The notes under the pieces: model-generated
Database searches by the model: none
What the model saw: only the letters and a program-made list of their open reading frames with translations
What the model was told of the DNA's origin: nothing
Translations under genes and position numbers: made by a program
Shown here: piece by piece, positions 23,980-30,412 of the stretch
Layout: every line of letters begins with the position of its first letter
How positions within the stretch are numbered: the stretch's first letter is position 1
From: Halanaerobium praevalens DSM 2228
GTDB lineage: Bacteria > Bacillota > Halanaerobiia > Halanaerobiales > Halanaerobiaceae
Length of the DNA: 64,000 bases
Assembly: GCF_000165465.1 (NCBI RefSeq)
Contig: NC_017455.1
Location: forward strand, 372,001-436,000
Direction: 5' to 3'

Positions 23980-24028
23980 GACAATAGTTGCCGGGTACCA
24001 TCCGATATATTCAAAGCTCTGCAGAATA

Positions 24029-24088
24029 AAATATTAGTTTGGACTACTACTCTCATTGGGGTTATAAAATTCTGATGAGAGTTTTTTT
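24029..24088 (+). repeat. direct repeat A flanking the accessory operon (contains a terminator)
   Basis: AAATATTAGTTT followed by CTACTACTCTCA and a hairpin recurs in the same orientation at 27467-27527. Identity is roughly three quarters over about 60 bases. The two copies lie 3.4 kb apart, one on each side of the five-gene accessory operon. Confidence 0.5.
24049..24088 (+). terminator. terminator after manC
   Basis: ACTCTCAT (24049-24056) pairs with ATGAGAGT (24075-24082), followed by seven T residues. Confidence 0.75.
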
Positions 24089-24092
24089 ATTT

Positions 24093-24122
24093 CACTTCAA
24101 CACAATATCCACTAAGTTGCAG
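24093..24122 (-). repeat. 30-bp dispersed repeat, right copy (inverted)
   Basis: The reverse complement of this segment matches 2147-2176 at 26 of 30 positions. It adjoins the 23-bp tandem repeats described next. Confidence 0.5.
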
Positions 24123-24212
24123 TTCATGTTTTTATCCTGCAATAATCGGGAATTTTAGTTTGCAACTTCCGGGAATACTAATTTGCAATTCCCGGTAATT
24201 TTAGTATACAAC
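24118..24212. repeat. 23-bp degenerate tandem repeats, probable IS21-family end remnant
   Basis: TGCAA recurs at 24138, 24161 and 24184, then TACAA at 24207, exactly 23 bases apart, with a looser unit at 24118. Each unit holds a CGGGAA-like or CCCGG-like core and a TTTAGT-like end. Multiple repeats of this style mark the ends of IS21-family elements. No transposase gene is left beside it. Confidence 0.45.
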
Positions 24213-24321
24213 AAATAATAATAATCTAAATTAAGTTTAAAAAAAACCAAATAAATATAAAGGATTTATTACCTGCTCATAGAATTATTAAATATAGGTA
24301 AAAAGAAGGGGTTGATTAATT

Positions 24322-24756
24322 ATGTTAATGGATTACAGTCAAAAACAGGAGAATTCTTTATTTGATTTATCTCTATCACTGACCTTTAATAAAATTATTA
24401 AAAGTTTAACTAAAGAAAAAGATAGCAAAGACAAAAATTATGATCTTACTATTAGTTTTTTTGAAGTTATTCTTGACTTCTGTAATAAACAGTTTAGTGA
24501 ATTAAATAATGAGTTCTCAGGTGCTGATGCATTTTCTATATTTACTTCTGCACTAAATAATATGGACATAAAAGTTGAAACTATTGATGATGTTTTAAAA
24601 GAAGCTGAAAAGTACCATAATTATTTAATCTCATTTAAACGGGAAAGATCACTTGAACCTGGAGAAATGAATGAACTAATCAAATTATTAGAAGAAATAA
24701 ATAATCAGTTAAACCGTAAGCTGGAAAGCAATCAAATGAACAGTTGGGGTTATTAA
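24322..24756 (+). CDS. unknown protein, first gene of the accessory operon
   Basis: I do not recognise this 144-residue protein. It is charged and soluble, predicted mostly helical, without signal peptide, membrane segment or cysteine pairs. Its C-terminal half (EKYHNYLISFKRERSLEPGEMNELIKLLEEINNQL) could form a coiled coil. GGGG lies 9 bases before ATG. The next gene starts one base after its stop, so the two are almost certainly made together. It may be a partner or adaptor of the metallopeptidase-like protein. Confidence 0.75.
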   Translation: MLMDYSQKQENSLFDLSLSLTFNKIIKSLTKEKDSKDKNYDLTISFFEVILDFCNKQFSELNNEFSGADAFSIFTSALNNMDIKVETIDDVLKEAEKYHNYLISFKRERSLEPGEMNELIKLLEEINNQLNRKLESNQMNSWGY

Positions 24757-24757
24757 T

Positions 24758-26170
24758 ATGATCATCTCTAAAGAAGAATATTTAAATAATTTGTTAGATT
24801 CTTTTTGCAAGTATGAAGAAAAGTTGAATATTTTGAGCAATAAGGCCTATCCTTCAGATATAGTAAAAAAGTTTATTGAAAATGATCTTAAGATGATAAT
24901 TACTGAATTTAAGAAAATAGCTCATAATGATCTTAAAAACAATGAAGATTTTTTTAGTGACAAAACTATCCTGGCTAATAACATCTGGGATCAAGGTCAT
25001 TTACAAAGGATAGCAAAGGTGGTAGCTAATACAGATTTTAAATCACACCCCTTAGAAATAATGAATGTTTTTAGAGATTTGATTAAAGATATCGAAAAGA
25101 ATGATTTTGAAATCTTAACAATTCCTAGAGAAGAAATGAACTTTTCTTTTAGTGAAATCTGGTTTAAATTAAAAATGTTTTTAGAAAAAGAGTTAAATAT
25201 GACTGGTTTTACAGTAAATAAAAAATTTATCAAGTTAACTTTTCCCCAAAACCATAAAAACAATTTACTGCTTTCTGGAATATTTTTTCATGAAATAGGC
25301 CATTATTTGGTTGAAGAGAATAATTTTGCTGACAAGATATTTCAAAAAATAAATTTTAATAGTGATGACTTTTTAAGCCTAAGGAGATGTGTTTATGCTA
25401 ATAACGGTAATCAGCTTGGGCAGGTGGAATTAGTTAATATTTTCAGACGATATTATTTAATAAACTGGATAAAAGAATTATTATCTGATATATTAGCTGT
25501 TTATACAGTCGGACCGGGTTTTGTTTTTTCTATGTTTGATTTTGTGATAAATAACACTAGTATAAATAATTTTTATAATGAAAATTTAAGCAATGCTTGC
25601 TCTGTATCACATCCTCGTTTTAGCTTTAGGTTTAATCTAATGGTAAAAGCGCTAAAAGAACTTAAAATATACAATGAGCTGCCCGAATTATTAAAAACTA
25701 AAATTAAATCCTATACAGATGCTTATGCTAATAGTAATAATCAGCAGCAAAACAGATCAGGGAATATTAGAATTAATAATATTAATTATACGGTTCAGGA
25801 AAGCAAATTTATGTTTCAAAAATTAGAAAATATAATAAATGATTTAATTCCTCATATGTTAGCTGAATCAAAACAGTTATTGGGAGTAAGAAACATTATA
25901 AGTAAAAACAAATTAAACCAGGCTGAAAAACTTGCTGAACAAAGAATCAAAGAAGTTATCCCACCAAATGAATTTAATAATACTGCTGCTGCACCAATTG
26001 CAATAATAAATTCTGGTTGGTATGCTAAATTCCTATATAAAAATTCATTAAAGAAAAGAGTTGGAAAAATAGATGGTAAAAATGGGGATTATGATTTAAA
26101 TCTTTTAATAAATGATTTGATGAAGTATTCACTAAGAACCAGTAGAATCCAGCGGAGGTGGCAGGATTAA
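24758..26170 (+). CDS. HEIGH zinc metallopeptidase-like protein of the accessory operon
   Basis: The 470-residue protein has FFHEIGHYLVEE with the HExxH site at 178-182. A likely third ligand follows in KELLSDILAVYTVGPG near residue 240, then SHPRFSFRFNLM near 284. This order (HExxH, E-x3-D, HP-x-x-x-x-R) is that of gluzincin-type peptidases. There is no signal peptide and no transmembrane anchor, so it is probably cytoplasmic. A long N-terminal helical region precedes the catalytic part. Its TAA overlaps the ATG of the dCTP-deaminase-like gene. Substrate unknown. I know no named family for it. Confidence 0.7.
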   Translation: MIISKEEYLNNLLDSFCKYEEKLNILSNKAYPSDIVKKFIENDLKMIITEFKKIAHNDLKNNEDFFSDKTILANNIWDQGHLQRIAKVVANTDFKSHPLEIMNVFRDLIKDIEKNDFEILTIPREEMNFSFSEIWFKLKMFLEKELNMTGFTVNKKFIKLTFPQNHKNNLLLSGIFFHEIGHYLVEENNFADKIFQKINFNSDDFLSLRRCVYANNGNQLGQVELVNIFRRYYLINWIKELLSDILAVYTVGPGFVFSMFDFVINNTSINNFYNENLSNACSVSHPRFSFRFNLMVKALKELKIYNELPELLKTKIKSYTDAYANSNNQQQNRSGNIRINNINYTVQESKFMFQKLENIINDLIPHMLAESKQLLGVRNIISKNKLNQAEKLAEQRIKEVIPPNEFNNTAAAPIAIINSGWYAKFLYKNSLKKRVGKIDGKNGDYDLNLLINDLMKYSLRTSRIQRRWQD

Positions 26171-26784
26171 TGTCAATTATCTCAAAGGAAAAAATTAATA
26201 ATTCATTGACTTCAAAAGCTGAAAACAGCTTAACTATTACTCCAATTCTTGATAGTGAAAAACAAATTGGTGAAAGTACAATTGATTTAAGGCTGGGAAC
26301 CAAGTTTGAAGTCGATATGCGGACACGAAAGCCATTTTTCGATCCTTTAAGTGATAAAAGGCCAATTGAAACTTTTTTTCAGGATACTTACCGCAATTTT
26401 GGTGAAAAATTCATATTATATCCCCAGCAGCTGGTACTTGCTTCAACATTCGAATATGTCAAACTACCCGATGATTTATTTGGAATAGTTTTTACTCGTT
26501 CTTCCTGGAACAGATTGGGTTTAAATATTTCTTCTGTTTTACAGTCTGGATATGCTGGAGTAATTAATTTAGAGTTAGTTAATAATTCTTCTAATCCGAT
26601 CGCATTATATCCAGGCTTGAGAATTGTGCAATTGATTTTATTTTCTGTAGATGGTGAAAAAAGAGAAGCTTATTATAGGGATTCTATTTCTAAATATGTT
26701 GCTAATTCTGATCCGGATTTATCGAGTATTTCTGAGGATGAAGATCTTCAAGTATTGAAAAATAAGTTTCCGATTAATTCTTGA
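26170..26784 (+). CDS. dCTP deaminase/dUTPase-superfamily protein with altered active site
   Basis: The 204-residue protein has ESTIDLRLGTKFEV near residue 35, LYPQQLVLASTFEYVKLPDD, TRSSWNRLGL near 110 and INLELVNNSS with the conserved Glu near 134, all marks of the Dcd/Dut fold. Between RSSWNR and LELVN it is about three residues shorter than E. coli Dcd and lacks the H-x-x-A-x-R stretch. The dUTPase-like G-x-I-D position reads VLQSGYAG, with Gln near 124 where Asp is usual. It may therefore act on another nucleotide or only bind one. ATG 26170 overlaps the preceding TAA, with GGAGGTG 9 bases upstream. Confidence 0.82.
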   Translation: MSIISKEKINNSLTSKAENSLTITPILDSEKQIGESTIDLRLGTKFEVDMRTRKPFFDPLSDKRPIETFFQDTYRNFGEKFILYPQQLVLASTFEYVKLPDDLFGIVFTRSSWNRLGLNISSVLQSGYAGVINLELVNNSSNPIALYPGLRIVQLILFSVDGEKREAYYRDSISKYVANSDPDLSSISEDEDLQVLKNKFPINS

Positions 26785-26831
26785 TTTTTGATTAAATAAT
26801 ACTGTTCTTTAAAAAATTAAATAATCGAATA

Positions 26832-27053
26832 TTGATAAAATTTCTTTCAGGTGATTATTTTGTTTTATCAGCTCTATTAGCACAGGATAAAAATTTAGAT
26901 ATAATTATCAACTCTGTATTAAAAACTGAGATTGATTTAGAAAATACTTCTATTCTAGTTCTCACTTCTGATGAGGATTTGAAATTATATAATAATTATC
27001 TTGATAAAGAATCTATAGTCGAAGTAAGAAAAGGGAGGGTTGATGATGGATAG
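26832..27053 (+). CDS. small unknown protein, fourth gene of the accessory operon
   Basis: The frame codes 73 residues from a TTG at 26832. No good ribosome binding site is seen, so the start is uncertain. The sequence (FLSGDYFVLSALLAQDKNLD ... SILVLTSDEDLKLYNNYL) is not recognised. The 3' end overlaps the start of the next gene and supplies its GGGAGGG ribosome binding site, which supports real translation of both. Confidence 0.5.
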   Translation: MIKFLSGDYFVLSALLAQDKNLDIIINSVLKTEIDLENTSILVLTSDEDLKLYNNYLDKESIVEVRKGRVDDG

Positions 27054-27273
27054 TTTAACAGAATTAAAACAAAATGAAGATCTGGTTATTAATTCAAAGA
27101 AGATAGAAGAGGAAATTGGTGCATATTTTGATAATATTTCTAAAGAGGATTTAATAAGAGATTTAAATGAAGCTGGGATTGAGGTTCAGGATACGGGGAA
27201 GAATTATGTGCCTGTTGTTGATGCCTATATTTGCAAAAAAATTATACATTTTTTTAAGTTAAAAATCGATTGA
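27046..27273 (+). CDS. small unknown protein, last gene of the accessory operon
   Basis: The 75-residue acidic protein (MDSLTELKQNEDLVINSKKI ... NLNEAGIEVQDTG region) is not recognised and is predicted largely helical. ATG 27046 is chosen because GGGAGGG at 27033-27039 lies 6 bases upstream; ATG 27043 and TTG 27040 are too close. It overlaps the preceding gene by 8 bases. Confidence 0.6.
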   Translation: MDSLTELKQNEDLVINSKKIEEEIGAYFDNISKEDLIRDLNEAGIEVQDTGKNYVPVVDAYICKKIIHFFKLKID

Positions 27274-27466
27274 CTCTTTTCTTTAGCTGATTATAATGAG
27301 AATAACAGAAATCATAGGGTAATAATTAAGAAAAATACTTGAGCTATATTATTTCCTCATATTAGAAGAATTATAAGTCATATGACTTTAGAAATGCAGG
27401 TTTGACCTGTACAAATGCCGCCAATGAATATAAATCATTTTTTTGATGGGGAAAAAGAGGACAATT

Positions 27467-27527
27467 AAATATTAGTTTAGGCTACTACTCTCACTAGGAT
27501 TACTAAAATTTTTTGTGGGAATTTTTT
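27467..27527 (+). repeat. direct repeat B flanking the accessory operon
   Basis: This matches direct repeat A at 24029-24088 in the same orientation. The shared blocks AAATATTAGTTT and CTACTACTCTCA are exact, and the hairpin region is diverged but still pairs. Confidence 0.5.
27489..27527 (+). terminator. terminator after the accessory operon
   Basis: TCTCAC (27489-27494) pairs with GTGGGA (27515-27520) with one G-T pair, followed by ATTTTTT. Confidence 0.6.
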
Positions 27528-27547
27528 GTGTATTATTGTCGAAAATC

Positions 27548-27994: not shown

Positions 27995-30412
27995 ATGATA
28001 ATAAGAATAATAAAAGCAATCATCAACCTATTTAAGCGAAAATCAAAAAGAAAAATTGAATTAGAAAAAGAAAAAGAATACATAGAAAATCAGATTAAAA
28101 AATATCATGATCTTTTTCATAACTATGGAGAATATCCTTTAAATAGGAAACAGCAGGAAGCTGTTGTTAAAAATCAAAGGTATAATCAGGTGATTGCAGC
28201 TGCAGGAACAGGGAAGACTACAGTTTTAGCTTACAGAATTAAATATTTAATCGAAGAAGGTATTGAGCCCGCAAGAATATTAGCAATTACTTATTCAAAT
28301 AAAGCAGCAGAAGAGATGCAGATTAGACTTAAGGAAAAATTTAATATTACTGAGGTCAATGTAAATACTATTCACTCTTTTGCCAACAGTATAGTTAAGG
28401 AAGAAAGTAATTATAAGCTTTCTACAGTTGATCCGAATGATATTACCAACATAGTTGAAGAAGGATATAATCAGTTTTTAAATTCTAGTCAGGAGTTCAG
28501 AGGATATTTTTACAAATTTTTAAGCCATCAGGATGATGAATATCTTGATGAAGCTGATTTTGAAGAAAAAACAGAATATCTTGCTGCAATGAGAACAAAA
28601 AAATATGAAACTCTTAAAGGAGAAAAAGTAAGATCAAGGGCTGAAAAAGCTATAGCAGATTTTTTCTTTTTATATAACATTAAATATCGGTACGAAAAAA
28701 TTGCTGACTGGGCTGATAAAAGCGATGACAAAGTTGTCTATCAGCCTGATTTTTGTTTGCCGGAATATGATATTTATCTTGAGCACTTAGGAGTAAATAG
28801 AAAGAATGAGGTTCCAGAATGGTTTGAGTGGAGCTCTGAAGAATATTTAGCCAAAAGGAAATGGGCACAAGCTCAATTTAAAAAACATAACAAGACTTTG
28901 TTAGAAACTTTTGATTATGATTACCAGGAAGGTAATTTAGAAGCTATTTTAAAAGAAAAATTAAAAAGAAATAGAGTTAAGCTTAAAAAGAGAAATTTCG
29001 AAGAATTTCTGGATGCTGTAAATGATGTTAATAGCTACACTTTACTTGATGATTATAAAAAGTTTATTAATACTGCTAAAACAAATAATGTAAAAGTTGA
29101 TCAAATTGAAGCTTTATTAACACGAGGTTTTGAAAAACAGTATTACTTTGCTAAAAGTGCAGCTATGTTATATCAGTATTATGAAGATTATCTAGAAGAA
29201 AACAGGAAAATTGACTTTAATGATATGATATATAAGGCAGCTGCTATTCTAAAGGAAAATCTTCGAAAATATCAAAAGCGATATGATCACCTGTTAGTTG
29301 ATGAATTTCAGGATGTGTCTCTGGGTCATATTGAAATCATTAAACAATTTTTTGAGGAGGACTCTAAAGTTAAATTATTTTGTGTTGGAGATGACTGGCA
29401 AAGTATTTATTCTTTTCAGGGCTCTGACCCAAAGTACTTTATAGATTTTGAAAAATATTTTGGTAAAGCTGCTAAAACTTATCTTGTTGATAATTATCGC
29501 TGTCCTAAATCAGTACTTGAAGCTGGTAATTCTTTAATAGATAATAACAAACATAAAATTGAGAAAAAAGTTAAGGCGAATAATCCAGCAGAAACTATTC
29601 CTAAATTACATATTTTATCAGATAGTAATCGTTATAAACATCGAGTAACAAATTATACAGTTAATCTAGTTAAGAAATATCTATCTGATGAAAATGAACC
29701 AAAAGATATAATGATAATCTGTCGCTATGATGGAGCAGCACCTTTTCTGGAATCAATAAAAGAAAAACTTAAAGAAGATGAAATTTCTTATATTGGCAAA
29801 GGTGATGACTATTATAATGCGGAAAGTAATAGTCAGAGGCCGGAAAATGCTGTTTCAATCTTTTCAGTACATCAATCCAAAGGTCGAGAAGCAGATAATG
29901 TTATTTTATTACATATGGTAAAAGATGATAACTTTAGTTTCCCAACAGTAGACAAGGAAAGCAAATTAATTGAGCCGGTTAAACTTAATAAAATTAATCA
30001 TTTAGAAGAAGAAAGGCGGCTTTTTTATGTAGCAATAACCAGAGCAAGCAAAAATCTTGATATTTTAACTCAATCAAATAATATGTCACCATTTGTTAAG
30101 GAAATTGAAAGTCATCTTGAAAAAGCTGAAAGCCTAAATCTTTCCAACATTCAAAAGAATAAAGGTTTTGATTTAACAGCTAAAATCTACAGGCTCTGGG
30201 ATTCAAATAGTGATAAAATCAGGCAGCGCGGGATGCTGGAGACCAGAACAGAGGAAATAATTCATTTTCTTGCCTGGGAAAGCTGTGACTTAAAAGAGTT
30301 AGAAGAAAATATATGGTATAAACTAAGAAATTTAAAACTAAAAGAATATCAAGGTAAGAAACAAATTCAATTTACTGCAAAGACAGAAATAGTTGAACTT
30401 TACCAGGAATGA
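27995..30412 (+). CDS. UvrD-type superfamily 1 helicase with inserted PD-(D/E)XK-like domain
   Basis: The 805-residue protein has Q-motif LNRKQQEAVV, Walker A AAGTGKT near residue 72, LLVDEFQDVS (motif II) near 436, DNYRCP, SIFSVHQSKGREADNV and RRLFYVAITRASKNL (motif VI). Between the first helicase segments lies an inserted block: SRAEKAIADFF near 214, YQPDFCLPEYDIYLEHLG near 248-265. Its E...D...E arrangement fits a PD-(D/E)XK or Vsr-like nuclease, as in helicase IV-like proteins. The N-terminus is basic and coiled. It probably acts in DNA repair, but a role against foreign DNA is possible given the neighbours. Confidence 0.9.
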   Translation: MIIRIIKAIINLFKRKSKRKIELEKEKEYIENQIKKYHDLFHNYGEYPLNRKQQEAVVKNQRYNQVIAAAGTGKTTVLAYRIKYLIEEGIEPARILAITYSNKAAEEMQIRLKEKFNITEVNVNTIHSFANSIVKEESNYKLSTVDPNDITNIVEEGYNQFLNSSQEFRGYFYKFLSHQDDEYLDEADFEEKTEYLAAMRTKKYETLKGEKVRSRAEKAIADFFFLYNIKYRYEKIADWADKSDDKVVYQPDFCLPEYDIYLEHLGVNRKNEVPEWFEWSSEEYLAKRKWAQAQFKKHNKTLLETFDYDYQEGNLEAILKEKLKRNRVKLKKRNFEEFLDAVNDVNSYTLLDDYKKFINTAKTNNVKVDQIEALLTRGFEKQYYFAKSAAMLYQYYEDYLEENRKIDFNDMIYKAAAILKENLRKYQKRYDHLLVDEFQDVSLGHIEIIKQFFEEDSKVKLFCVGDDWQSIYSFQGSDPKYFIDFEKYFGKAAKTYLVDNYRCPKSVLEAGNSLIDNNKHKIEKKVKANNPAETIPKLHILSDSNRYKHRVTNYTVNLVKKYLSDENEPKDIMIICRYDGAAPFLESIKEKLKEDEISYIGKGDDYYNAESNSQRPENAVSIFSVHQSKGREADNVILLHMVKDDNFSFPTVDKESKLIEPVKLNKINHLEEERRLFYVAITRASKNLDILTQSNNMSPFVKEIESHLEKAESLNLSNIQKNKGFDLTAKIYRLWDSNSDKIRQRGMLETRTEEIIHFLAWESCDLKELEENIWYKLRNLKLKEYQGKKQIQFTAKTEIVELYQE

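Follow-up and report, generated by a model that had tools for sequence, protein, structure and literature searches.

Does a predicted peptidase encoded next to a Dcd-like protein in Halanaerobium praevalens DSM 2228 belong with it to one system, and what would such a system do? To address this question, we analysed a 64,000-nucleotide stretch (the window, whose numbering is used throughout) of the single 2.31-Mb contig that constitutes this genome. A sequence-only reading of the window had proposed a five-gene accessory operon in which a nucleotide-sensing part is coupled to a protein-cutting part. Here we describe a three-gene cassette, termed S-P-D after its small protein (S), its predicted peptidase (P) and its Dcd-like protein (D), and weigh what it may do.

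The cassette in Halanaerobium

The first three genes are packed as tightly as the sequence-only reading had described, with a single intergenic base between S and P and a 1-bp overlap in which the final A of the P stop codon TAA is the first base of the D start codon ATG, at 26170 (Table 1). In the P open reading frame the HEIGH sequence occupies residues 178–182. P is rare in the order (2 of 38 genomes), and the second copy of the cassette was found in the relative Halanaerobium saccharolyticum MSL 17.2 at approximately 93% DNA identity, with homology to the window extending from 24253 to 26821.

Table 1. Features of the S-P-D cassette in the window.
Feature	Coordinates	Strand	Description
Upstream promoter/leader stretch	24253..24321	+	Conserved with the cassette; H. 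saccharolyticum DNA homology begins at 24253
S	24322..24756	+	ORF, 144 aa; small protein, partner of P; fold not recognised
P	24758..26170	+	Predicted zinc metallopeptidase, 470 aa; H178-E179-x-x-H182, E240, D244, H285, R291
D	26170..26784	+	Dcd/dUTPase-fold protein, 204 aa; catalytic loop shortened, Q125 at the usual Asp position

Of the five genes first proposed, S, P and D stand and the last two drop out, as the homology to H. saccharolyticum ends upstream of them. These two tiny ORFs (26832–27053 and 27040–27273), which overlap each other and begin about 50 bp downstream of D, were rejected as cassette members, pieces of them being present without S-P-D in other Halanaerobium genomes (twice in G017, once in G010). 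They look like decaying pieces of one longer gene. Fragments of the 26832–27273 stretch are scattered through Halanaerobium genomes, often close to polysaccharide genes.

The flanking repeats noted earlier are present (24025–24071 versus 27463–27510, 85% identity over 48 bp), but they do not by themselves delimit a mobile island, because they belong to an intergenic element that has further copies in a related genome. Copies of this element (TACTACTCTCA...) flank the cassette at 24024–24159 and 27463–27531 and recur at several sites in genome G015. In the window, genes for a ManC homologue and a UvrD-like helicase neighbour the cassette. Gene content after ManC differs in every Halanaerobium genome read, and this is therefore a variable position; none of the other Halanaerobium genomes showed an empty counterpart of the island in the window, each carrying different genes after ManC. 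The helicase gene lies outside the S-P-D unit. It encodes a UvrD/helicase-IV-like protein of 805 aa with an insertion (27995–30412), the best PADLOC matches of which are RTasHel and GajB, and neither a reverse transcriptase nor a GajA partner was seen beside it.

Both Halanaerobium copies sit on large chromosomal contigs. The H. saccharolyticum cassette follows a truncated second copy of ManC and lies near the C-terminal part of an Avs4 protein (558 bits) and IetA/IetS genes, so some copies do have a defence-island context. The IetA/IetS-like pair of this island consists of an AAA ATPase and a subtilase (locus L036, 5118–8566). An SMC-like ATPase gene resembling LmuB and DndD, broken by a transposase, starts about 50 bp after D in H. 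saccharolyticum.

Recurrence of the cassette on mobile elements

A tblastn search with D revealed plasmid relatives at about 41–46% identity. In Rhizobium, Shinella, Agrobacterium, Bradyrhizobium, Emticicia and E. coli, reading the surrounding genes gave the order small ORF, HELGH peptidase and D; S-P-D was also present on Salmonella P1-like phage-plasmids, and R. phaseoli has a more diverged form of it. No peptidase gene neighbours the canonical Dcd of a haloarchaeal plasmid. Window P used alone as a query gave no match in plasmids, phages or viral contigs, and scans of viral contigs with early alignments were likewise unsuccessful; it was an intermediate Bacillota relative of P, used as the query, that opened up the family. 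Relatives of Rhizobium P were found in 17 plasmid records, with a D match directly adjoining in 16 of the 17 (one with a P remnant only), and the seventeenth record has a fragmented annotation and the replicon type of the E. coli carrier. The prevalence of plasmids among the copies is biased by the use of a plasmid collection, and the genome-wide scan, which found six loci, used a narrow pattern that gives no all-genome frequencies.

Among 5,426 complete E. coli genomes the cassette occurs in 8, always on plasmids of about 90–109 kb, which we take to be P1-like on the strength of their gene annotations (Ref, Icd-like, maturation control and tail) and of general knowledge of P1. The adjoining backbone stretch, in which a maturation control gene lies, has plasmid matches in 100 E. 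coli genomes, only about 8 of which have the cassette. Comparison of a carrier with a non-carrier revealed that S-P-D plus approximately 340 bp upstream, a 2.4-kb insertion, stands in place of approximately 31 bp. This clean insertion holds S-P-D alone, and the three genes therefore constitute the whole unit. Elsewhere, the rhizobial copies sit after multiubiquitin/ThiF genes and type I restriction genes flank the Emticicia copy on both sides.

Its recurrence in several other lineages puts the S-P-D order far beyond chance, and we judge it nearly certain that S-P-D is a real module. The coupling of a peptidase with an altered Dcd-fold protein proposed by the sequence-only reading was thus borne out: a search for the pair elsewhere found the two together in multiple lineages, in conserved order in several phyla and on mobile elements.

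Properties of P, S and D and the link to Argonaute

In an alignment of P relatives, the HExxH motif, the downstream ExxxD motif (E240 and D244) and a distal Arg were invariant in 23 of 23 proteins and a His was near-invariant. No Pfam, NCBIfam or PADLOC model matched P, and the E. coli protein scored 16.1 bits against Pfam M48, under the cut-off of 20.3; PHROGs contains the E. coli P and S proteins without an assigned function. We found no convincing sequence relative of P among solved structures. An AlphaFold2 model of P had a mean pLDDT of 54, with higher values around the motifs, and fold searches with this model returned helical matches only, mostly to its low-confidence N-terminus, with no peptidase among them. 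S is recognised by position: a small ORF of about 95–151 aa directly precedes P in all S-P-D and S-P loci read, and its sequence is hardly conserved between loci.

Pairs of S and P also occur without D. A Bacillota P relative (27% identity), again directly preceded by a small ORF, follows genes for a Cas4-like nuclease and a class II prokaryotic Argonaute (pAgo), and cyanobacteria, Bacteroidota, Chloroflexota and haloarchaea yielded further S-P pairs lacking D. A pAgo gene adjoins all 12 distinct loci of this kind (L037, L041–L048, L054, L057 and L059, with L055 closely duplicating L041); it lies upstream of the pair in the bacterial loci and is convergent with it in the haloarchaeal ones. The count is open to selection bias, since a single pAgo-linked query led to most of the loci. 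Neither 'peptidase' nor 'protease' appears in the main text of two pAgo surveys, from 2009 and 2018 (PMC2743648, PMC6299218), and the effectors named in a 2023 study of long-B pAgos are nuclease, Sir2 and membrane proteins (PMC10620215). Multiubiquitin, ThiF and DUF6527 genes stand beside both a pAgo-linked Runella S-P pair (L043, 8021–10200) and rhizobial S-P-D cassettes (L060, 1950–4581).

The P tree groups by partner far better than shuffled labels do, and the D-linked P proteins do not form one clade. Three more distant P relatives lie in other contexts. On a Sinorhizobium terangae plasmid (L051, 1–7699) such a relative follows genes for a CHAT-domain protein and a 1,595-aa ATP-binding protein, possibly a third partner type for the P family. 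A relative in a Bacillota genome (L040, 1474–9144) lies about 1 kb after three genes that, judged by eye, resemble an SMC set of JetABC type.

D is recognised by the Pfam DCD model (8.7e-28) and by NCBIfam dCTP_deam (128.3 bits, cut-off 92.8), and it is an extra copy, the genome having a separate housekeeping dcd (G000:C1:1815469). We aligned 8 cassette D proteins with 28 housekeeping Dcd proteins and 3 others and built a tree from them, in which the cassette proteins form one clade (support 99/95) adjoining R. phaseoli D. The positions compared are catalytic in Dcd enzymes, the loop contacting the base. Loop residues are missing in all eight cassette proteins, which carry Gln where Dcd and DCD-DUT proteins carry Asp, and the Ser, Arg and Glu positions are retained. 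Window D reads SV--LQSG and KYV where the 28 housekeeping proteins read NAGWVDPG and KYQ (or KYL/KYM); it has neither an intact catalytic loop of the A-x-x-D-P-G type nor the C-terminal KYQ. The predicted structure of D was too poor a model for use. Judged from these residues, normal Dcd chemistry in cassette D is doubtful and nucleotide binding may persist, which questions the dCTP-deaminase label of D on E. coli, Salmonella and rhizobial plasmids, with its key catalytic positions changed.

Proposed function and relation to known systems

We propose that S-P-D is a self-contained, horizontally mobile cassette that would use regulated proteolysis to defend its carrier against phages or plasmids, with D as the trigger, and assign this reading a probability of roughly 0.45. 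P, predicted to be a cytoplasmic zinc peptidase, would be the effector, since the D and pAgo contexts share this enzyme; S may restrain or deliver P, as an adaptor or inhibitor. D, derived from Dcd, has probably lost normal deaminase/dUTPase chemistry and may still bind pyrimidine deoxynucleotides. D could then read a change of the dNTP pool driven by infection, for which Clover offers a precedent (PMC12265719), and release P to cleave a protein of the host or of the invader; in the related operons that pair S-P with Argonaute, the latter would take the trigger role. D is the probable trigger because it stands where pAgo stands. The division into a nucleotide-sensing part (D) and a protein-cutting part (P) put forward by the sequence-only reading, itself conjectural, gains support because the catalytic positions of D are altered and the S-P half also partners pAgo.

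The components of this proposal differ in strength. From its genes and their contexts, S-P-D probably serves anti-phage or anti-plasmid defence, and, granted defence, D appears somewhat better suited to the part of trigger than to that of effector. The broader idea that S-P is an unrecognised proteolytic immune effector module with varied triggers, either Argonautes, in bacteria and archaea, or an altered Dcd acting as a nucleotide sensor, in the cassettes of Halanaerobium, rhizobia, Bacteroidetes and P1-like phage-plasmids, is put forward tentatively. The gene order, the mobility of the unit, the motifs, the altered D, the pAgo link and the defence-island context of some copies count for a defence role. 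The unconserved sequence of S and the scattering of D-linked P over the tree count against it, and phage-plasmid cargo can serve purposes other than defence.

Alternatively, the effector may be D itself, as a specialised Dcd that would deplete dCTP or produce dUTP in infected cells and be regulated by S and P, for example by P removing an inhibitor or processing D. Going by its kept Ser, Arg and Glu positions and by a score above the dCTP_deam cut-off, D could still be an enzyme, and defence enzymes that deplete dNTPs have been described (Tal et al. 2022, cited in PMC12265719). We nevertheless consider this unlikely: every cassette D protein has the shortened loop and the Asp-to-Gln change, the C-terminal KYQ is altered, and the 12 S-P loci beside pAgo have no D, leaving P as the common enzyme. 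The cassette D proteins are also unlike both phage and housekeeping Dcd at the catalytic positions, which argues against an ordinary phage-type enzyme that supplies nucleotides for replication of the element itself and plays no part in immunity. Phages commonly carry Dcd genes, yet here the peptidase and small protein are always linked and the cassette is also found on Halanaerobium chromosomes, making that explanation highly improbable.

Plasmid maintenance offers a different account, in which S or D keeps P, a toxin, in check, loss of the cassette is lethal and any effect on phages is secondary. A small partner directly upstream of the enzyme gene recalls a toxin–antitoxin layout, and all E. 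coli copies and most of the others found are on plasmids, a count biased by the plasmid collection; the P1-like elements are nonetheless stable without the cassette, given its rarity on the shared backbone, the Halanaerobium copies are chromosomal and S-P is linked to pAgo. We therefore hold addiction to be quite improbable. The ATPase after D in H. saccharolyticum raises the further thought that the window copy is a remnant of a four-gene Lamassu-like system that lost its SMC-like ATPase, as the window homology stops just before that gene. This is very unlikely, for the ATPase does not accompany S-P-D on the E. coli, Shinella, Bradyrhizobium or Emticicia plasmids, the P1-like insertion holds three genes and the H. 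saccharolyticum ATPase is itself transposase-interrupted; the same plasmid loci and insertion rule it out as a fixed fourth component.

If the reading of S-P-D as a D-triggered proteolytic defence is true, protein cutting would join the outputs of Argonaute immunity, and a housekeeping nucleotide enzyme would have been turned into a trigger for a peptidase. The E. coli version spans only about 2 kb and is thus directly testable in laboratory strains.

We regard S-P-D as new as a gene system: we know of no named family or system with this composition, we found no description of the cassette in the open-access literature, and none of the PADLOC models (2023 defence library) matches S, P or D. 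A sensor joined to a proteolytic effector is, as a general concept, already known. Lamassu includes peptidase-type effectors (PMC10586767), and a LmuB-like gene adjoins the H. saccharolyticum copy as in Lamassu/ABC-3C systems; the cassette itself has no SMC ATPase, P matches no LmuA model, and the LmuB-type ATPase is absent from the window and most other S-P-D loci, being found only after the H. saccharolyticum copy. The pAgo operons, comprising the class II type with a Cas4-like nuclease and the haloarchaeal type, have the same S-P pair directly adjoining the pAgo gene, whereas the window and the other S-P-D cassettes have D and lack both pAgo and the Cas4-like nuclease; the ORF lists around the window cassette contain no Argonaute-sized gene in the unit. 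Lacking the ATPase and Argonaute genes that define these systems, S-P-D is neither a Lamassu nor a pAgo system. P shares HExxH and a downstream ExxxD with M48-like zinc peptidases but falls under the M48 cut-off and has the additional invariant Arg and near-invariant His. With dCTP deaminases and DCD-DUT enzymes (TIGR02274, PF22769) D shares the fold family and several active-site positions, and it differs in its shortened loop, Gln for Asp, changed C-terminal motif and fixed peptidase partner, so S-P-D is not safely classed as a Dcd enzyme set. Closest in theme are the dNTP-targeting defences, namely dCTP deaminase, dGTPase and Clover, the last of which reads dTTP levels (PMC12265719): S-P-D, a candidate defence operon, likewise contains a nucleotide-pool protein, but one of doubtful enzyme activity that is partnered with a peptidase.
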